Shown one piece after another: positions 17,460-26,627 of a stretch of DNA of 35,281 nt. The notes below the pieces were generated by a model that did not search any database, had not been told where the DNA came from, and saw only the letters and a list, made by a program, of their open reading frames with translations. A program made the position numbers and the translations under genes. The stretch lies in assembly GCA_021299185.1 (NCBI GenBank), contig JAJTHZ010000009.1:1-35281 (forward strand), written 5' to 3'. Numbering within the stretch: position 1 is the stretch's first letter; the number at the start of each line of letters is the position of its first letter. Source of the stretch: Lysobacteraceae bacterium. GTDB taxonomy: Bacteria; Pseudomonadota; Gammaproteobacteria; Xanthomonadales; Ahniellaceae.

Positions 17460-20009
17460 TCAGCCGGTGGGCGACCCGCCGTCGTCCGGCTTCGCGGGCG
17501 CGGGCGTTACCTCGAGCTTCGGGTTGGCGGTGAGCTTGAGGATCGAGTGGCGCAGTTCGCGCGAGAGGATCAGGCGCGCATCCTTGGCGATCGCGGCCAG
17601 CGCGTCGCCGAAATCGAGCTTGCCCGATTCGTCCAGCCACACGAAGCGGTGTTCCTTCAGGGTGGCGATGAAGCCGCGGAACAGGTTGCGGTCGAAGAAC
17701 TCCGGCGCGCTGCGTTCGTACAGCAGGGCGAGGCGCTGCGCGGTGAGGTGGCAGAGGTTCTCGAGCTCCGACGACGACAGCGCGCGCGGGCCGTTCTTCA
17801 CCAGCAGGGCGATCGCGATGTAGTAGCGCTCGAAGGCCTGCACCAGGGTGTGCGCGACCACCCGCAACTGGAAGGCCTCGTCGGTCTGGCCGACGCGCCG
17901 GCGCAGCATGCGGCCCTCGGCGTCGGCCTTGAGCAGGCCGAGTTCGAGGAACACGTCGATGGTCGCCTGCACGCGCTCGCCGAACTGCTCGGCCGTCCAC
18001 GGCAGGAACAGCTCGTTCTGCAGGAAGGGGTAGACGAACTCGCCGAGGCGCTCCACGGTGCCGCGGCGCAGGCGGCGGTTGTTGAGGAAGCAGCACGCCA
18101 CCCAGGCGGCGGTGGCGAACAGGTGGATGACGTTGTTGCGGAAGTAGGACAGCAGCACCGCGCGGTCGCCTTCGGCCGCCAGCACGTCGCCCAGCGGATG
18201 GCGCACGCGCTCGATCGACTGCATGCGCTCGCCGTAGGCGATGATCTCGGCCGGCGTGAGCGCGGTGACGGTGACGCGGTCGGAGTAAGGCACGCGCTCC
18301 AGCAGGTGCTTGCACACCGACAGCGCCGACGACAGGTCGCCCTCGCCCAGCGCGTGCTTGGGCGCGGACAGCAGCACCAGCGCCAGCAGGTTGATCGGGT
18401 TGACGTCGGTGGCGCGGTTGATGTTGACCAGCACGCGGTCGGCCAGCGTCGACACCGCGCCGGCGAACCACTCGGGGCGATCGTCGGCGTCCGGGCTGCG
18501 CTCGCGCCACGCGGGCGCCACGCGGTCGAGGTGCTCGCCGAGGAAGATCGGCTCGCCGAACGACAGCGCCACCTTGCCGTACTTGTGGCGCAGGATGCCG
18601 AAGGCGCGCAGCAGGCCGAGCAGGCTTTCCTTCTCCTTCGGCTTGCCGGACAGCTCGCCGATGTAGGACTTGCCCTCGATCAGCTTCTCGTAGCCGATGT
18701 AGACCGGCACGAACACCACCGGCCGGCGCGGCACGCGCAGGAAGGAGCGCAGCGTCATCGCCAGCATGCCCGCGCGCGGCTCCAGCAGGCGCCCGGTGCG
18801 CGAGCGGCCGCCCTCGATGAAGTACTCCATCGACACGCCGCGCGCGAAGAGCTGGGTCACGTATTCGCTGAACACGGTCGAGTACAGCGCGTTGGCGCGG
18901 AACGAGCGGCGCAGGAAGAAAGCCCCGCCGCGGCGCAGGATCGGGCCGACGACCGGCAGGTTGAGGTTCACGCCGGCCGCGATGTGCGGCGGCACGATGC
19001 CGTTCTCATACAGCTGGTAGGACAGCAGCAGGTAGTCGATGTGGCTGCGGTGGCAGGGCACGTAGACCACCTCGTGCCCCGGCGCCACCTTCTTGAGGGT
19101 GTCGAAGTGGTGCATCGACACGCCGTCGTAGATCTGGTTCCAGAACGGCCGCAGGATGAACGACAGCGAGCGCACCACCGGGTGCGAATAGTCGGCGGCG
19201 ATCTCCCACGCGTAGGCGCGCGCCTTGGCCCAGGCCTGCTCGCGGTCGATGTTCTCCTTCGCCGCGGTGGCGGCGATCGCCGCGCGCACCGGTTCGGCGT
19301 TGAGCACGTCGTCGATCACCGTGCGGCGGTGCGACAGGTCGGGGCCGATGACCGCGGTGCGCAGGCGGCGGAAGTGCGCGCGCAGCACGCGCGCGGCCTT
19401 GCGCACCGTGCGCTCGGGGTCGAGGCCTTCGGCCACCACCTCGCGCAGGCTCACTGCGGGGCTGAAGTGCACGATGGTGTCGCGGCCGTTGAGCAGCAGG
19501 GCCAGCAGGCGGCGGAAGCGGCCGACCACCACCCAGTTCTCCGAGAACAGCACGCGGAACCAGCCGGTGGCGCGGTTCGGCGCGCGACCGACGAAGATCG
19601 ACACCGGCACCACGTGCACGTCGAGCTCGGGGTTCGCGGCGACCGCGGCGAGGAGTTCGCTCAGGCCCTCGGAGCGCGTCGGATGGCGCGGCCGGCCCTC
19701 CAGCCAGGAGCCGCGCCGGGACAGCGACAGCACGGCGCGGTCGCGCCGCATCAGGCCACCGGGCACCGGCATCAGCGGCGGTGGCAGGCCGGCTTCGCGC
19801 GCGGCCTCCTCCAGGATCACCGCGTTCGAAAGCCCATAGCGCTCCAGCACGTAGACCACCGGCACGCCGGGCTTGGTGATGACCTCCAGCGGCCGATCGG
19901 GCTCGGTCTTGATCCGCAGCCACGGACGCAGGCCGCGCGCGAGCAGGCGGAATGGCCAGGGCGCGCGGGCGGCCTCAGGCAGGTTCATGTCGGCGGGGGC
20001 GACGGCCAT
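17460..20009 (-). CDS. plsB: Glycerol-3-phosphate 1-O-acyltransferase PlsB
   Basis: Encodes 849 residues (E. coli 807) from ATG at 20009, preceded by GGAAG. The acyltransferase block has CHRSHIDYLLLSYQLY (HX4D, around residue 320), GAFFLRRSFRANALY, YFIEGGRSRTGRLLEPRAGML, and FVPVYIGYEKLIEGKSY. It transfers an acyl group from acyl-ACP or acyl-CoA to sn-1 of glycerol-3-phosphate at the inner membrane, the first step of phospholipid synthesis. A second in-frame ATG seven codons later lacks a ribosome-binding site. The Ala/Pro/Asp tail is low-complexity. The candidate sRNA/terminator lies about 220 bp upstream on the same strand. Confidence 0.97.
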   Translation of the reverse strand: MAVAPADMNLPEAARAPWPFRLLARGLRPWLRIKTEPDRPLEVITKPGVPVVYVLERYGLSNAVILEEAAREAGLPPPLMPVPGGLMRRDRAVLSLSRRGSWLEGRPRHPTRSEGLSELLAAVAANPELDVHVVPVSIFVGRAPNRATGWFRVLFSENWVVVGRFRRLLALLLNGRDTIVHFSPAVSLREVVAEGLDPERTVRKAARVLRAHFRRLRTAVIGPDLSHRRTVIDDVLNAEPVRAAIAATAAKENIDREQAWAKARAYAWEIAADYSHPVVRSLSFILRPFWNQIYDGVSMHHFDTLKKVAPGHEVVYVPCHRSHIDYLLLSYQLYENGIVPPHIAAGVNLNLPVVGPILRRGGAFFLRRSFRANALYSTVFSEYVTQLFARGVSMEYFIEGGRSRTGRLLEPRAGMLAMTLRSFLRVPRRPVVFVPVYIGYEKLIEGKSYIGELSGKPKEKESLLGLLRAFGILRHKYGKVALSFGEPIFLGEHLDRVAPAWRERSPDADDRPEWFAGAVSTLADRVLVNINRATDVNPINLLALVLLSAPKHALGEGDLSSALSVCKHLLERVPYSDRVTVTALTPAEIIAYGERMQSIERVRHPLGDVLAAEGDRAVLLSYFRNNVIHLFATAAWVACCFLNNRRLRRGTVERLGEFVYPFLQNELFLPWTAEQFGERVQATIDVFLELGLLKADAEGRMLRRRVGQTDEAFQLRVVAHTLVQAFERYYIAIALLVKNGPRALSSSELENLCHLTAQRLALLYERSAPEFFDRNLFRGFIATLKEHRFVWLDESGKLDFGDALAAIAKDARLILSRELRHSILKLTANPKLEVTPAPAKPDDGGSPTG

Positions 20010-20230
20010 GCGAGCGCTTCCATGGGGTGCCGCGGCACGCGGCTCAAGCCCGCGCGCAGGCGATCGCTGCCGCGGCGTTCAGGCCGGGGCGGCGCGGCGA
20101 CGACGGGATCGAGGCGAGTCGGGGGGCCAAGCAGCCACACTCGTGACGGGGTAGGCGACTGTAGGCGCGGGGCTTTCCGCCGCGCAACTGGCCATCGGGC
20201 CGATCGCGCCGCCCCGCATTCCGGTCGCCC

Positions 20231-20265
20231 AAAAAAAAACTCAGATGGTCTTGCGGCCATCTGAG
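20231..20265 (-). terminator. Intrinsic terminator (9-bp perfect stem, T9)
   Basis: On the minus strand CTCAGATGG (5' arm, pairing positions 20257-20265 with 20240-20248) forms a perfect 9-bp stem with an 8-nt loop and is followed at once by nine T residues (20239-20231). It is the only textbook rho-independent terminator found in the window. It could end the proposed sRNA or transcripts reading out of pyrF 200 bases upstream. Confidence 0.9.
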
Positions 20266-20327
20266 CGAACCGGCTGTGTGCCGGAGGGGGAATCGGCATC
20301 GCGGTCGGCGCGGAGCCGTCGCGACGT
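20231..20327 (-). ncRNA. Candidate small RNA, about 97 nt, with C-rich loop
   Basis: On the minus strand a promoter-like sequence (20334-20363) predicts a start near 20327 and the terminator ends at 20231. Between them are short hairpins: CGGC-TCCGC-GCCG, and TGCCG (20294-20298) pairing with CGGCA (20279-20283) around a 10-nt loop ATTCCCCCTC. The loop is complementary to Shine-Dalgarno sequences, a known feature of C-rich-loop bacterial sRNAs such as Xanthomonas sX13 (established for that RNA, inferred here). No open reading frame of useful length lies in it. The alternative is a pyrF 3' trailer or a plsB leader. Confidence 0.5.
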
Positions 20328-20333
20328 GCCGAA

Positions 20334-20363
20334 ATACTAACTTAGCTGCGCTATCTGATGCAA
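20334..20363 (-). promoter_or_regulatory. Promoter-like sequence for the candidate sRNA
   Basis: Reading the minus strand: TTGCAT (20358-20363), 18 bases, TAGTAT (20334-20339). Each hexamer is a partial match to sigma-70 consensus. The -35 hexamer overlaps the edge of the 19-bp palindrome at 20360-20378, as expected for a regulated promoter. Confidence 0.45.
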
Positions 20364-20378
20364 TACCTGAGGTATTGC
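20360..20378. promoter_or_regulatory. Perfect palindrome GCAATACC-TGA-GGTATTGC
   Basis: An 8-bp perfect inverted repeat with a 3-base centre in the AT-rich stretch, overlapping the putative -35 box of the candidate sRNA. It looks like a dimeric regulator site; the regulator is unknown. Confidence 0.55.
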
Positions 20379-20383
20379 TGCCT

Positions 20384-20406
20384 AAAGCATTGATTGATAA
20401 TGCTTT
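20384..20406. promoter_or_regulatory. Perfect palindrome AAAGCATT-GATTGAT-AATGCTTT
   Basis: An 8-bp perfect inverted repeat with a 7-base spacer, five bases beyond the first palindrome and just upstream of the putative -35 box. It has a different sequence from the first, suggesting a second regulator or a hairpin. Upstream placement would suit an activator. Confidence 0.5.
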
Positions 20407-20464: not shown

Positions 20465-21355
20465 TCAGCCAAGGATAGCCGCCTCCCCCCGCAGTTGCGC
20501 AAGCGCTTCGGCGATTGCCGCTGGCGCCGCACCGCGGGCCAGGATGCCGCGCGACACATTGGGCAGCACGCGCGACGCCGCCGCACCGAAGCGCCGCTTC
20601 ACGTCGGCGAAGGTCGCCCCCTGGGCGCCGACGCCGGGCGCCAGCAGCCAGGCCCCGGGCATGCGTTCGGCGAGCGCGCTGGATTCATCGTGGGTGGCGC
20701 CGAGCACGGCGCCGATGCCGCCGCCGATCGGCGCGTGGCGCAGGTTGGCTTGCGCGATCTCGTCGGCCAAAGCCTCGGCGACGCTGCGGCCGTTGGCTGC
20801 GGCGTTTCTGGAGACCAGAGCCTCGGCGACGCCACGGTCGTCGATCAAGCGGGCGGTTTGGGTGGGAGTGCCTTCCGGGTTCGACGAGCGCACCACCACG
20901 AACACGCCGGTGCCGGCGGCGAGCGAGGCATCCACCCCACGCGCCAGCGCGCCGAAACCGAGGTAGGCCTGCGCGGTCCAGGCATCGCAGGCCAGCGGCG
21001 CGCCGGGTCGCGAGAAGGCATCGGCATACGCCTCGGCGGTGGCGTCGATGTCGCCGCGCTTGCCGTCGAGCAGGACCAGCACGCCCTCGGCGCGGCAGTC
21101 GGCGAGCAGGCGCTCCAGCGCGGCGAGACCGGCGCTGCCGTGGCGCTCGAAGTACGCCATTTGCGGCTTGACGATCGACAGCTCGAAGCGCGCGGCCTCC
21201 AGCACGCGGCGGCCGAAGTCGCGCAGCCCCCCCGCGTCGTCCGCGAGGCCGCACTGCGCGAGCAGCTTCGGCGACGGATCGATGCCCACGCACAGCGGCC
21301 CGAAGCGCGCCACGCGCGCGGCCAGCCGCGCCGGGAAGGGCACCGGCGCGCTCAT
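20465..21355 (-). CDS. pyrF: Orotidine 5'-phosphate decarboxylase (type 2, PyrF)
   Basis: Encodes 296 residues from ATG at 21355. It decarboxylates OMP to UMP, the last step of de novo pyrimidine synthesis. The active-site motif is LLDGKRGDIDATA (Asp97, Lys99, Asp102), preceded by GPLCVGIDPS and IVKPQMAYFERHG, and followed by SSNPEG and the phosphate-binding LLAPGVGAQGA. Length and the DGKRGDI/SSNPEG pattern fit the longer type 2 subfamily rather than the E. coli type. The ATG overlaps the stop of the acid phosphatase gene (ATGA), so both are probably translated from one mRNA. Confidence 0.95.
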   Translation of the reverse strand: MSAPVPFPARLAARVARFGPLCVGIDPSPKLLAQCGLADDAGGLRDFGRRVLEAARFELSIVKPQMAYFERHGSAGLAALERLLADCRAEGVLVLLDGKRGDIDATAEAYADAFSRPGAPLACDAWTAQAYLGFGALARGVDASLAAGTGVFVVVRSSNPEGTPTQTARLIDDRGVAEALVSRNAAANGRSVAEALADEIAQANLRHAPIGGGIGAVLGATHDESSALAERMPGAWLLAPGVGAQGATFADVKRRFGAAASRVLPNVSRGILARGAAPAAIAEALAQLRGEAAILG

Positions 21356-22275
21356 TCGCGGCGCAGGTTGCGGCGCATGCAGGCGCGCGCGTCGTCCTTT
21401 TCCGCGCCGTCGCAGAACTTCGCCGCCGCGTCGACCCACGAGCCGTACATCGGATTGGGCAGCATGAACCAGCGGCTGCCCCACCAGTCGCGGTAGGTCG
21501 CGGTGCGGCGCTTGCGCGTCGGGTTGTCGGTCTTCACCCCGCCGAGGAAGTCGCCGAGGTTGTCGCCGAACATCCCGATCACGCGGTAGTCGCGGTCGAC
21601 CAGCCGGCGGCGCGAGACCTTGTCGCTGCCGAAGCCACGCGCGTCGTCGAGCAGCAGCAGGCGCTCCTCGCCGCCCTCGGACAGGGGGAAGCCCAGCGCG
21701 CGCAGGTTGTCGGCGGTGGCCGCACCGTCGGCCGCGCTGCGGTTGGTGACGTAGAACACCGCGATGCCGGCGCCGGCCGCCCACTGGGTGAACTCCACCG
21801 AGCCGGGCACCGCGCGCGCGCGCCGCTCCGCCACCCAGGCCGACCACGATTCAGGATCGAACAGCGCGTCGACGTCGATCCGGCGCGCCTGGTAGGGCGA
21901 GTTGTCGAGCACGGTCTCGTCGGCGTCGAGGATGATCGCCAGCGGCTGGCCGGTGTCGTTGTTGGCCCGCTCGGCCATCGGCATCGCGTTCCAGTTGCCC
22001 AACTGGTTGGCCGCGGTGGCGCGCGCCTCGTCGTCCGGCGCGGATGCCGCCTGCTGCTGCCACTGCACCACCGGCGCCAGCGCGCGCCGCGCGCCGACGT
22101 AGACGCTGCGCGCGGTGGCCTCGTATTCGACCGCGTCCTGCTGCCACGACACGGCGTACAGCTGGTCGTTGGCGGGTGCAGCGGTGGTGGCCGGGGCGTC
22201 GGATTTGCCGGGCGCGCTGGCGCAGGCGGCGAGGAACAGGCAGAAAAGGGCGGCGACGGGCGTACGCAGGGTCAT
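21352..22275 (-). CDS. HAD-family acid phosphatase lipoprotein, e(P4)/5'-nucleotidase type
   Basis: Encodes 307 residues. The signal peptide ends in the lipobox FLAAC (Cys18). The HAD motif I is ILDADETVLDNSPY (Asp117, Asp119); motif II is VFYVTNRS, and motif III/IV are in RRRLVDRDYRVIGMFGDNLGDFLGG. This is the class C / e(P4) outer-membrane acid phosphatase family (PF03767), which dephosphorylates nucleotides such as NMN or NMP in the periplasm. The C-terminal segment has WFMLPNPMYGSW, as in the family. The overlap with pyrF suggests a nucleotide-scavenging link. Confidence 0.93.
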   Translation of the reverse strand: MTLRTPVAALFCLFLAACASAPGKSDAPATTAAPANDQLYAVSWQQDAVEYEATARSVYVGARRALAPVVQWQQQAASAPDDEARATAANQLGNWNAMPMAERANNDTGQPLAIILDADETVLDNSPYQARRIDVDALFDPESWSAWVAERRARAVPGSVEFTQWAAGAGIAVFYVTNRSAADGAATADNLRALGFPLSEGGEERLLLLDDARGFGSDKVSRRRLVDRDYRVIGMFGDNLGDFLGGVKTDNPTRKRRTATYRDWWGSRWFMLPNPMYGSWVDAAAKFCDGAEKDDARACMRRNLRRE

Positions 22276-22352: not shown

Positions 22353-23930
22353 TCAGGGCGGCGGCTCGAAGCCGTCACTGAACACGCGGTCGAAGTCGAT
22401 CGGGTCGGAGAACTCGCTGGTGTTGCCGTCGGCATCGATGGCCACGGCCGTGATGTAGAGCACCGCCCCGACCTGGGACGGCGGCAGGGTCAGGCTGACC
22501 GGAACCACAGTCAGCGCCTGCGCCGCGCTGATCGTGGCCTGGCCGATCTCCGCCACGCCTTCGTTGCGGCCGAGGTCGGCGCGATAGAAGCGCACCGTGA
22601 TCGGATAGGTCGCGTTGGCCGGCAGCGTGTCCTGCCGGAACGTCAGGTCGAAGCGGTCCGGGCCGAGCCGCGTGCCGGACACGATCACCGGCCAGTTCAG
22701 CGCGCGGTTGGGGCCGTTGTCGCCGTCGCCGGGATCGTTGGCCCGCGCAATGTTGAAGAGATCGATGCCGATACCGGCGTTGTTGGCGATCGAGTTGCCG
22801 ACGATCTCCAGCGTGCCTTGCTCCGCCTGCAGGGCGGCACCGCTGACGCGCACGCCGACGCCGTTGTTGAAGGCGATGAGGTTGCCTTCGCCCGGACCCG
22901 TGCCGCCGACCACGCTGCGAAACGGCGCGCTGATGCCCTGAGTGCGCAGGATCGCCGCATGGGTGGCCGGATTGCTCCCGTTCGGCAGCGCCGCCAGCCC
23001 GCCGACGTCGGTGCCGATCCAGTTGCCCTGCACCCGGATGCGATGCGGGCCGATCGACCCCGCCCCGCTGCCGATGCCCACTGCGGTCTCGCGGTTGCCG
23101 GAAATCAGGTTGCGGGCGGCAGCCGTATTGCCACCGATCACCACGCCCGCGGGATTCTCCTGCCCGATCCGGTAACCGGCGACGTTGACGCCGGAGCGCC
23201 AGCCGCGGGCCTCGGTGCCCGTGCGGTCGGTGCCGATCAGATTGCCCTGGACCAGGAGGGAACCGGTCGCTTCGAAGCCGCTCGCGATGATGGCGACGCC
23301 CGTGCTGGTCGTCCCGCTGCTGCCGGCGAGCAGGTTGCGCTGCGCGGGCAGCAAGCCGCCGATGCGGACCGCCCCGACGACCGACGCCCCCCCTTCGGCC
23401 AGCGAGATGCCCACTGCCATCACGGACGGCACGTTCGTGCCCGAGACGTCGGCGCCGATATGGCAGCCCTCGACCACCAGACCCGCGGAACCGGAGGCGC
23501 TGATCGCACGTGCGAAGCGGGTGATCGCGATGCCGCGCACGGTGTGCGTGCCCGACGTCGTGCCCGCGGCGATCAGCAGCCCGATCGTGTTGGCCGTCGT
23601 CTGCGAGCTGCTGAGCTCGATCGCAAGGTTGCCATTGAGCCCCCCCTGGTCCGGCGTGTTGGTGTTGGCCACCCAGCCCGGCTGGGTGGTGCCGTCGATC
23701 GTCACCAGCCCGGTGATCATGGGCAGCGGCGAGGCCACGCTGATCACGTGCGGGCCGGTGCCGGGGATCGCGAACACGATGTCGTCGGCGATCGCGGCAC
23801 CGTTGACGTTGCTGTCGGCGATCGCCTGGCGCAACGAGCCGGGGCCGGCGTCGGCGGTGGTGGTGACGGTGAAGGTGGCGGCCTGCGCGGGCAGGACGGC
23901 CAGAAGCAGCAGCGGAAGGATGGCGCGCAT
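22353..23930 (-). CDS. Exported right-handed beta-helix protein with CSLREA-like start and DGFEP tail
   Basis: Encodes 525 residues from ATG at 23930, with GGAG upstream. Signal peptide MRAILPLLLLAVLPAQA, then a CSLREA-like segment (TTTADAGPGSLRQAIADSN), the motif VTIDGTTQPG, and a long parallel beta-helix of N-L-I-G-T-D, N-W-I-G-T-D and N-S-I-A-N-N rungs (about residues 120-410). A short beta-sandwich region follows, and the protein ends DFDRVFSDGFEPPP. Related proteins are surface or secreted and often carbohydrate-binding, but no catalytic residue can be picked out. It lies 21 bases downstream of a larger relative with the same tag, probably in one operon. Confidence 0.85.
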   Translation of the reverse strand: MRAILPLLLLAVLPAQAATFTVTTTADAGPGSLRQAIADSNVNGAAIADDIVFAIPGTGPHVISVASPLPMITGLVTIDGTTQPGWVANTNTPDQGGLNGNLAIELSSSQTTANTIGLLIAAGTTSGTHTVRGIAITRFARAISASGSAGLVVEGCHIGADVSGTNVPSVMAVGISLAEGGASVVGAVRIGGLLPAQRNLLAGSSGTTSTGVAIIASGFEATGSLLVQGNLIGTDRTGTEARGWRSGVNVAGYRIGQENPAGVVIGGNTAAARNLISGNRETAVGIGSGAGSIGPHRIRVQGNWIGTDVGGLAALPNGSNPATHAAILRTQGISAPFRSVVGGTGPGEGNLIAFNNGVGVRVSGAALQAEQGTLEIVGNSIANNAGIGIDLFNIARANDPGDGDNGPNRALNWPVIVSGTRLGPDRFDLTFRQDTLPANATYPITVRFYRADLGRNEGVAEIGQATISAAQALTVVPVSLTLPPSQVGAVLYITAVAIDADGNTSEFSDPIDFDRVFSDGFEPPP

Positions 23931-23951
23931 GGGGTCGGCTCCGGGCGGGGC

Positions 23952-26402
23952 TCAGGGTTCGAAACCGTCGCCGAACAGCGGCAGCTCGAAGCAGGTGCCG
24001 AATTCGCTGGAATCGCCGCTGCGAAGCGTGCCGTCGATCTCCACGAAGCGCAACGCCTGCAGCACCAACTGGCGTCCGCTGAACGACCCGGTGTCGATGT
24101 TGACGATGAAATCCTCCGAGCCGTTGGCGCCGGCGGGCGCGTTGGTGATCTCCACGGTCGCGCCGGCCGGGGTGTTGGCGAACTCGGGTACCTCGCGGCC
24201 CTCGCAGCGTCCGATCCCGATCCCCAGAACGCGATCGGCCGCGAAAGCGCGGATCCGGTAGCGGCCGTTGACCGACTCCAGGCGCCCGCGCACCGCGAGT
24301 TGCGTCGGCGCCACCCGGTCGACGCCGAGCACCACCGGGAAGTTGATGCCACGGTTGCCGGCCGGCGGATTGGCCACGTTGTCGTTGTCGTTGGCGGTGA
24401 AGCCCTGGCCGGCGATGTCGATCGGCGCCTGCAGTACCGAGCCACCCCAGACGGGGGTGTCGGTCACGCTGTTGTCGTTGCCGGTGACCCGCACGCCGAC
24501 GAGGCTGGAGAACGCGATCTCGTTGCGCAGCGTGAAGTTGGCTTCGCCTTCGATCAGCATCCCGCGGCCGTTGCCGAAGCTCGACGGGCAGTTGCCGATG
24601 CACACCGGCGGCAGGCCGATGCGCGAAAGATTGACCAGGTTGTCGCGCGCCTGGCTGCGCAGCCAGATCGCGTTCTCCACCGAGTTCGCGACCAGGTTGT
24701 CACTGTAGGTGCCGAAGTCGCCGTCGACCACGATGCCGTGCGTGTTGCCGCCCTCGAATACGCCGTTGGGCTGCACGCCGATGTAGTTGTTGACCACCTC
24801 GGTGCGCAGCGAGTCGGCCCCGACAAGGATGGCGGCGGAGGTGATGAACCCGCTGCCGGTCTGCGCGGCGATCACGTTGCGCTGCGCGGGATCGCTGCCG
24901 CCGATGGTGACGTCGTCGGCCGCGGCGACCCAGACGCCGCCCTGGCCGTCGTTGGCGGAAGGTCCGAGATCGACGCCGAAGTGGCTGCCCTGGATGCGGT
25001 GGTTGTTGCCGCCCTCGAGCACGATGCCGTAGCCGAAGCCACCGAAGGCCAGGCCTTCGACCACCAGTTCGGTGCCCGACGGCGCGCTGGCAGGCACCCG
25101 CAGGCCGAACAAGCCGCTGCCGCCGCGCAACAGCACGCACTGCTGGCCGTCGTATCCGATGTCCACCGTGTTCGGCGCGTAGCCCGGCTGGGTGGTGCCG
25201 TCGACGGTCAGGCTGTCGGTGATCTGCGGCAGGGCGCTCGCGAGCTGGATCGTCTTTGGGCAACCGCTGCCACCGATGTTGAACTCGATCCGGTTGGGAC
25301 CGATCTGTGAGTTCGCCGCGGTGATCGCCGCGCGCAGGGTCCCGCTGCTGGAGTCCGCCGTGCTGGTGACCGTGAGCACGCCGGCGCCGCCGACGGCCGA
25401 CTCGAAGGCGCCGCGATCGATCGACGGCCCGACGAAGCGCGGGTTGCCGGACACGTCCTGGTTGGCGATGCCGGTCGGAATGGTGTTGGTGCCGGTGTTG
25501 ATGCCGGGCGAGCCGACCTGCAGGCGGAAGTCGCCCGCGGCGGGGCTCACGAAGTCGGGGTCCGCCGAGGTCGTGCCGCTGGTCGAGCCCACGGGCACAT
25601 CGGCGAAGCTGCCGAGGATGTTGTTGCGGAACGTCGCCGGCGCGAGATTGCCGTTGCCCACGAGGTCAGGCGTGCCCGCAGGCAGGCTGCCGCTCAGGAC
25701 GTTGTTGTAAAAGCCGGGCTGCTCGAACTGGCGCACGCAGAGGCCACCGCCGGGCGCAGTGTTGCGGGTGATCGTGTTGTTCGCCACCACCAGGCGCACG
25801 TCGGTGTCGGCGGCCGAATCACCCTGCAGGGTCACGGCGCAATCGCCCGGCGAGCTCCGGTTGGCGATCAGGTTGTTCTTGAACAGCAGCAGCGAGAGCC
25901 CGGCGCCCGACTCGGCGCGTGCCCCGATCTCGCCCGTGCCGCCGAGCACGCGGTTGTCGCTGAACTCCACGGTCTGCGTGGTGTCGCCGCTGGTGGTGCC
26001 GTTGTTGATCGCCAGGAAGCCGACGAAGTCGATGAACGACACGCCGCGCAGGGCGACATCGGTGGGCGTGGCCCAGGAGATGCCGCGCGCCGCGTTGGTG
26101 TTGCGCAGCGTGGTCAGCCCGGGATTGGGCGTGCGCAGGTTGCAGGCGGCATTCCACCCGCCGGTGATGTCGAGTCGCTTGCGCAGGCTGCGCGCGGTGA
26201 AGGCGTTCGAGTTCGACAGGTCGTAGTTGCCCTGGACCAGCCGCACGACCACGCGGTCGTAGGCCGGGTCGGTGGACACGGCGTCGTCGATCGCGGCGCC
26301 GAACTCGGCCACGGTGTCGACGCACAGCGTGCGGTCGACGGCGAGGGCCGGGGCGGCGGCGAACAGCAGGGCGATGGTCGGGGCGGAACGGGCGATGCGC
26401 AT
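23952..26402 (-). CDS. Large exported right-handed beta-helix protein with DGFEP tail
   Basis: Encodes 816 residues from ATG at 26402, with GAGG eight bases upstream; the open frame continues to 26552 but the signal peptide (MRIARSAPTIALLFAAAPALA) fixes the start. Residues about 25-370 form one beta-helix module with LDITGGWNAAC, SFIDFVGFLAINN and a D-P-D-F-V-S-P-A-A-G-D-F-R-L module end. Residues about 370-720 repeat the organisation of the downstream protein: TSTADSSSGTLRAAITAANS, LTVDGTTQPGYAP and beta-helix rungs. The C-terminus, SSEFGTCFELPLFGDGFEP, carries the same tag as its neighbour. Probably surface-located; no enzyme motif was recognised. It is divergent from the sigma-factor gene, 269 bp away. 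Confidence 0.85.
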   Translation of the reverse strand: MRIARSAPTIALLFAAAPALAVDRTLCVDTVAEFGAAIDDAVSTDPAYDRVVVRLVQGNYDLSNSNAFTARSLRKRLDITGGWNAACNLRTPNPGLTTLRNTNAARGISWATPTDVALRGVSFIDFVGFLAINNGTTSGDTTQTVEFSDNRVLGGTGEIGARAESGAGLSLLLFKNNLIANRSSPGDCAVTLQGDSAADTDVRLVVANNTITRNTAPGGGLCVRQFEQPGFYNNVLSGSLPAGTPDLVGNGNLAPATFRNNILGSFADVPVGSTSGTTSADPDFVSPAAGDFRLQVGSPGINTGTNTIPTGIANQDVSGNPRFVGPSIDRGAFESAVGGAGVLTVTSTADSSSGTLRAAITAANSQIGPNRIEFNIGGSGCPKTIQLASALPQITDSLTVDGTTQPGYAPNTVDIGYDGQQCVLLRGGSGLFGLRVPASAPSGTELVVEGLAFGGFGYGIVLEGGNNHRIQGSHFGVDLGPSANDGQGGVWVAAADDVTIGGSDPAQRNVIAAQTGSGFITSAAILVGADSLRTEVVNNYIGVQPNGVFEGGNTHGIVVDGDFGTYSDNLVANSVENAIWLRSQARDNLVNLSRIGLPPVCIGNCPSSFGNGRGMLIEGEANFTLRNEIAFSSLVGVRVTGNDNSVTDTPVWGGSVLQAPIDIAGQGFTANDNDNVANPPAGNRGINFPVVLGVDRVAPTQLAVRGRLESVNGRYRIRAFAADRVLGIGIGRCEGREVPEFANTPAGATVEITNAPAGANGSEDFIVNIDTGSFSGRQLVLQALRFVEIDGTLRSGDSSEFGTCFELPLFGDGFEP

Positions 26403-26627
26403 GGCGGATCCTCGGGGGGCCTGCCCCGTGGAACGGACGACGCCCGCCGGAGCGAACAGCCGGCCGTCCCGCGACCGCGGGGCTGGTGGCGGTCCGCCCT
26501 TCGTCGTCCGCCGGTGTTCGCCCGGGCCGCCTTGGCGCATTCCCCGGTTCATGGATGCCGCGCCCGCACCCTCGCCGACCCTTGCCGCCGCGGCCCATGC
26601 CCGGTGCGCGGCGTGCCGCGGATCGGC

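Follow-up and report, generated by a model that had tools for sequence, protein, structure and literature searches.

A conserved small RNA gene downstream of pyrF in Lysobacterales and its probable orthology with Xanthomonas sX14/Xoo3

Does the DNA between pyrF and plsB in a Lysobacteraceae genome encode a small RNA of its own, and, if so, to which known RNA is it related? An earlier note on the window, by which we mean the whole analysed stretch of 35,281 nucleotides, had placed there a minus-strand promoter (TTGCAT-N18-TAGTAT), a start near position 20327 and an RNA of about 97 nt ending in a perfect 9-bp terminator stem with a run of nine T residues. All of these elements are present in the sequence, the promoter at 20363-20334. 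The sRNA gene is real and strongly conserved, and it is common to much of the order Lysobacterales (Xanthomonadales). The window RNA is very probably a dedicated sRNA and a diverged orthologue of sX14/Xoo3. Known already is sX14/Xoo3 itself, a little-studied RNA thought to be restricted to Xanthomonas; new are the reach across the order and the conserved control region.

Positions 20220-20400 carry, in minus-strand order, AATCAATGCTTTA (within an AT-rich stretch), TCAGGTATTGCATCAG, an 18-nt spacer, TAGTAT, a GC-rich 5′ hairpin region of about 31 nt, AUUCCCCCU, a CCGG hairpin and a terminator with its T9 (Table 1). The terminator inverted repeat is perfect over 9 bp (20240-20248/20257-20265), and the nine T residues lie at 20239-20231. 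With respect to folding, the predicted energy of the window RNA is −46.9 kcal/mol, compared with −30.2 ± 2.9 kcal/mol for shuffled sequences (z = −5.7), and none of 200 shuffles folded as well. Pattern scans of the single window sequence left the matter undecided, as no consensus sigma-70 promoter was found and terminator-like sites occurred in chance number; the reality of the gene is settled by conservation.

Table 1. Features of the sRNA locus and its neighbours in the window.
Feature	Coordinates	Strand	Remarks
Predicted sRNA, about 97 nt	20231..20327	−	Transcription start placed 7-8 nt past the −10 hexamer
−10 hexamer TAGTAT	20334..20339	−	Preceded by conserved AAGT; aligned as TAnnAT, first T 95%
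Extended −35 box TCAGGTATTGCATCAG, conserved	20355..20370	−	TTGCAT inside, 20363-20358; TTG 97-98%
IHF-consensus-like box AATCAATGCTTTA (consensus WATCAANNNNTTR)	20383..20395	−	Window is an exact fit
5′ hairpin domain, lineage-specific	20296..20326	−	Minimum-free-energy fold; sequence varies among homologues
Pyrimidine tract AUUCCCCCU, predicted unpaired; candidate seed, Shine-Dalgarno-complementary	20285..20293	−	UUCCCCCUCCGG, exact or with few C/U changes, in f1 and f12
Conserved hairpin CCGGC-ACACA-GCCGG	20270..20284	−	Four inner pairs invariant; fifth shows one compensatory change
Intrinsic terminator and U tail	20231..20266	−	11 of 12 aligned pairs changed on both sides
pyrF, upstream neighbour	20465..21355	−	TIGR02127 (pyrF_sub2 type), 243.8 bits, cut-off 110.6
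HAD class B acid phosphatase / e(P4)-like 5′-nucleotidase, syntenic marker	21352..22275	−	PF03767; TIGR01533 below cut-off
plsB, downstream syntenic marker	17460..20009	−	NF003441, 1009 bits

Two structural details of the earlier reading survived in part. A C-rich loop had been drawn on a 5-bp stem, TGCCG/CGGCA; the sequence ATTCCCCCTC is indeed present around 20293-20284 on the minus strand, and an exposed, C-rich and anti-Shine-Dalgarno-like tract is what we also see, but it forms an open linker rather than a loop. The mean unpaired probability of the tract is 0.99 in the window and 0.83 over 70 homologues. We prefer the linker because the TGCCG/CGGCA stem competes with CCGGC/GCCGG, a hairpin whose four inner pairs are invariant across 76 distinct sequences, and the 5-bp stem was dropped on this ground. 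Similarly, the inverted repeat GCAATACCT/AGGTATTGC exists at 20360-20378, but conservation is confined to its right half, which belongs to the −35 box; the left half shows none, and the 19-bp palindrome was abandoned as a candidate operator.

In terms of distribution, a BLASTN comparison with 61 genomes of the order recovered the 3′ half of the RNA from several genomes of the window's family and from a single further family. With R1, a covariance model built on the core (tract, hairpin and terminator), each of the 10 genomes examined in the window's family yielded one copy and no more. A second model, R2, was built from 20 sequences of that family and of f12, with no f2 or Xanthomonas sequence; f2 is Xanthomonadaceae, and f12 corresponds to Rhodanobacteraceae, since it contains the named records Tahibacter and Pseudolysobacter. 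R2 matched 111 of 147 genomes in f12, representing 23 of its 26 genera, and, across the order, 178 of 398 genomes; a few of the weakest matches in this last set are due to chance. RNA loci also occur in four families besides these two. Weak matches off the locus in L072 and L095 were discarded as chance, and those in L033-L036 were likewise taken as chance. At the pyrF loci of Methylococcales and other bacteria outside the order no such RNA was found.

The anatomy retained across these homologues is informative. The tract and the CCGG hairpin are conserved while the sequence of the terminator drifts, its pairing covarying. The covariation score over the two helices is 0.483, compared with 0.125 for shuffled and at most 0.065 for slid alignments, in an alignment that was fitted to the model and somewhat favours structure; this covariation is evidence for an RNA. 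At the tract, the window's family and part of f12 have UUCCCCCU, and other lineages have UUCCUCCU, UUUCCCUU, GAUCCUCU, GUCCUCC or GUCCACC. The tract is nearly always pyrimidine-rich, and its unpaired state prevails in 64 of 70 predicted transcripts. Conservation is lacking in the 5′ domain, of which L023 and L047 have almost nothing left, their predicted RNA being about 73 nt, and the functional core is therefore taken to comprise tract, hairpin and terminator.

The genomic position of the RNA is equally constant. Of 80 aligned matches, 78 lie at a single syntenic site, on the same strand, in six families, with the order acid phosphatase and/or pyrF, RNA, uncharacterised lipoprotein and/or plsB. 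The lipoprotein, of about 300 aa (for example L022:468-1379, minus strand), is conserved beside plsB across the order; it has no Pfam or NCBIfam match, and the window itself holds no copy between the sRNA and plsB. The type of pyrF varies at this site. The window, and apparently L024 and L027, carry the TIGR02127 type, and other family members have TIGR01740 in the same syntenic place; one OMP decarboxylase subfamily has apparently been swapped in place for the other. Further upstream in the window, beyond the acid phosphatase, two large adjacent minus-strand ORFs (22353-26552) contain repeated CSLREA-like/beta-helix sequence and share a C-terminal 'DGFE' end, and one of them has a right-handed beta-helix match.

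Conservation extends to the control region, and the promoter ranks with the best conserved parts of the locus. The pattern ARGTRTTGCMTNAR is matched at no fewer than 11 of 14 positions by 70 of the 78 syntenic loci, with TAnnAT following 17-18 nt further on. Among these 70 homologues, a site fitting the IHF consensus (WATCAANNNNTTR, at least 8 of 9 positions) starts exactly 27 nt before the −35 box in 38 and is shifted by 1 in 7 more, and nearly all other offsets score 0-1. Judged by its consensus, this conserved box would be bound by IHF. Elsewhere in four genomes the promoter box is no commoner than a reversed-pattern control and no regulon was seen, so that the box looks dedicated to this sRNA gene; the idea of a regulon sharing it was dropped. 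A separate observation, made by eye, concerns f7, in which a TTGACA-type promoter replaces the TTGC type in most fetched loci (for example L058-L062, L064, L066, L067, L075 and L077). L065, L068 and L076 retain the older TTGC type; f7 shows a switch of promoter at a constant sRNA gene.

To which known RNA does this gene belong? The Rfam model RF02233 ('Xanthomonas sRNA sX14/Xoo3') matches an RNA at this same site in G063, a genome of f2, with 117 bits, its curated cut-off being 80 bits. The 15 genomes, out of 398, in which it exceeds that cut-off belong without exception to a single genus (g38 of f2), and in the window it gives no match at gathering, nor any on the element at E ≤ 10. The search of relatives and of Rfam proposed in the earlier note gave a divided result: hairpin, terminator and promoter are conserved in relatives, but Rfam finds nothing in the window. 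For this reason we speak of a diverged orthologue and do not place the RNA within the Rfam family in its present form; since RF02233 gives the window no useful score, the case for orthology is built on synteny, on the promoter, on a shared architecture and on the bridging loci.

Each of these lines points to sX14/Xoo3. The window copy adjoins pyrF and acid phosphatase, as expected of the sX14 site, and has the CCGG-stem hairpin and U-tailed terminator of the sX14 3′ end. In f2, too, this promoter stands downstream of acid phosphatase or pyrF, and a core can be recognised after it. The aligned promoter with its IHF-like box (IHF-like box, GTNTTGC, 17-18 nt, TAnnAT) precedes sX14 too, and in the Xanthomonas orthologue at L257 the Rfam sX14 model starts 7 nt past the aligned −10 TACGAT. 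Of seven fetched RF02233 loci, six (L257, L263, L264, L265, L266 and L269) have their best match to R2, a model trained on other families, over the 3′ two thirds of sX14, at about 21 bits and an E-value of about 0.0025 in 104 kb; L268 is not matched there. Moreover, in the bridging loci of G413 and G377 the same places are matched independently by RF02233, below its cut-off, and by R2. Among papers mentioning both pyrF and an sRNA in Xanthomonas none was relevant, and Liang et al. (2011) found no Xoo3-related sRNA outside Xanthomonas (PMC3039613).

With respect to mechanism, we propose that RNA polymerase would start at about 20327, helped by IHF bending the DNA at a AATCAANNNNTTA box 55-70 bp upstream and possibly also by some further factor or by the atypical −35 sequence. 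The terminator would end the sRNA, with Hfq binding the U tail, and the exposed UUCCCCCU tract may pair with G-rich ribosome-binding regions of several mRNAs and lower their translation or stability. The window's genome carries a gene for Hfq. Expression of Xoo3 is growth-phase regulated, with a peak during early growth, and falls dramatically when Hfq is missing (PMC3039613). Pairing of the tract with ribosome-binding regions is a plausible mechanism and the one toward which we lean. Before ATG codons in four genomes, the 10-nt complement of the tract, GGAGGGGGAA, does not occur, and the 8-nt complement, GGAGGGGG, occurs 15 times compared with 6 in controls, with no recurring gene and no conserved target. 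The Xoo3 deletion mutant shows changes in 26 proteins, including redox and energy-metabolism enzymes, and the deletion mutants of Liang et al. (2011) had no obvious phenotype (PMC3039613). A single lead in the window's genome, unsupported elsewhere, is a pntA-like transhydrogenase subunit (L219:1516-1809, plus strand, contig C98) with GGAGGGGG before its ATG, which is of interest because the Xoo3 deletion altered redox proteins.

Three other explanations deserve consideration. The first is a conserved sRNA that acts by binding protein through the CCGG hairpin, as a sink for Hfq or for another RNA-binding protein, with no pairing to mRNA. The four unvarying stem pairs beside a tract that drifts between lineages, and the lack of a conserved target in the search above, are what such an RNA might show. 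Yet the tract is pyrimidine-rich and mostly unpaired, as a seed would be, and the altered proteins of the Xoo3 mutant fit both mechanisms; we consider protein binding without pairing unlikely.

Improbable to a greater degree is a cis-acting, riboswitch-like leader or attenuator of the lipoprotein gene or plsB, in which the terminator would decide whether transcription reaches plsB. Promoter, RNA, terminator, lipoprotein where present, and plsB do lie on one strand in most homologues, but no conserved aptamer or antiterminator is seen, and the 5′ domain that might house one is variable or can be nearly absent. The distance from terminator to next gene ranges from about 40 to several hundred bp, and the downstream gene itself changes in L070 and L071 and in Xanthomonas, where the fetched stretch holds no plsB. 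The genes on either side of the intergenic region that holds Xoo3, finally, differ in orientation (PMC3039613).

That the RNA is just the end of the pyrF mRNA, a 3′ trailer plus its terminator, and that the promoter-like and C-rich sequence arose by chance, is scarcely credible: pyrF is indeed its immediate upstream neighbour in the window, and pyrF read-through would be stopped here, but a promoter that is among the best conserved parts of the region intervenes between pyrF and the terminator, many f12 loci have acid phosphatase instead of pyrF beside the RNA, tract and hairpin outlast the terminator sequence, and the Xanthomonas orthologue was detected as an RNA of 93 nt with its 5′ end mapped by RACE, at about 80 nt on Northern blots (PMC3039613). 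On this point the earlier note, which had argued for a dedicated sRNA, is upheld.

Returning to the dedicated, plausibly mRNA-pairing sRNA, the consequences reach beyond this genome. The Rfam model covers Xanthomonas only, and synteny and promoter extend sX14/Xoo3 to environmental, non-pathogenic bacteria of the order. This reach points away from a virulence-specific role and toward a core physiological one, in keeping with the redox and energy proteins altered by Xoo3 deletion. We would go further only tentatively, at a little under even chances, in suggesting that sX14/Xoo3 did not arise in Xanthomonas but represents there a core sRNA ancestral to the whole order, with one dedicated IHF-assisted promoter and an exposed tract that serves as a mobile anti-Shine-Dalgarno sequence, drifting with the ribosome-binding sites of each lineage. 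The many diverged sequences gathered here are what comparative target prediction needs, and the conserved IHF-like and −35 boxes bear directly on how the sRNA is controlled.

In terms of known systems, the alphaproteobacterial CUCCUCCC-loop and ar7-type sRNAs likewise expose an anti-Shine-Dalgarno-like stretch, but they are another class at other loci. The likeness to sX13 drawn in the earlier note does not hold as kinship. In both RNAs an unpaired, C-rich stretch might bind G-rich motifs close to start codons, but sX13 is Hfq-independent, lies by polA (downstream of it) and has three C-rich apical loops (PMC3771888), whereas the window RNA lies between pyrF and plsB, with one linker tract and no three-loop fold; locus and structure together rule sX13 out as the relative. 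The relative is sX14/Xoo3. Its 5′ hairpin is unrelated in sequence to that of the window RNA, its tract is UUGUCCACC (GUCCACC in Xanthomonas; C5 is not universal) in place of AUUCCCCCU, and the fetched downstream stretch in Xanthomonas shows no plsB where the window has plsB on the same strand. The two nevertheless share a locus beside pyrF/acid phosphatase, the promoter box and the IHF-like box, a similar size (93 versus about 97 nt) and a 3′ half consisting of tract, CCGG-type hairpin and U-tailed terminator.
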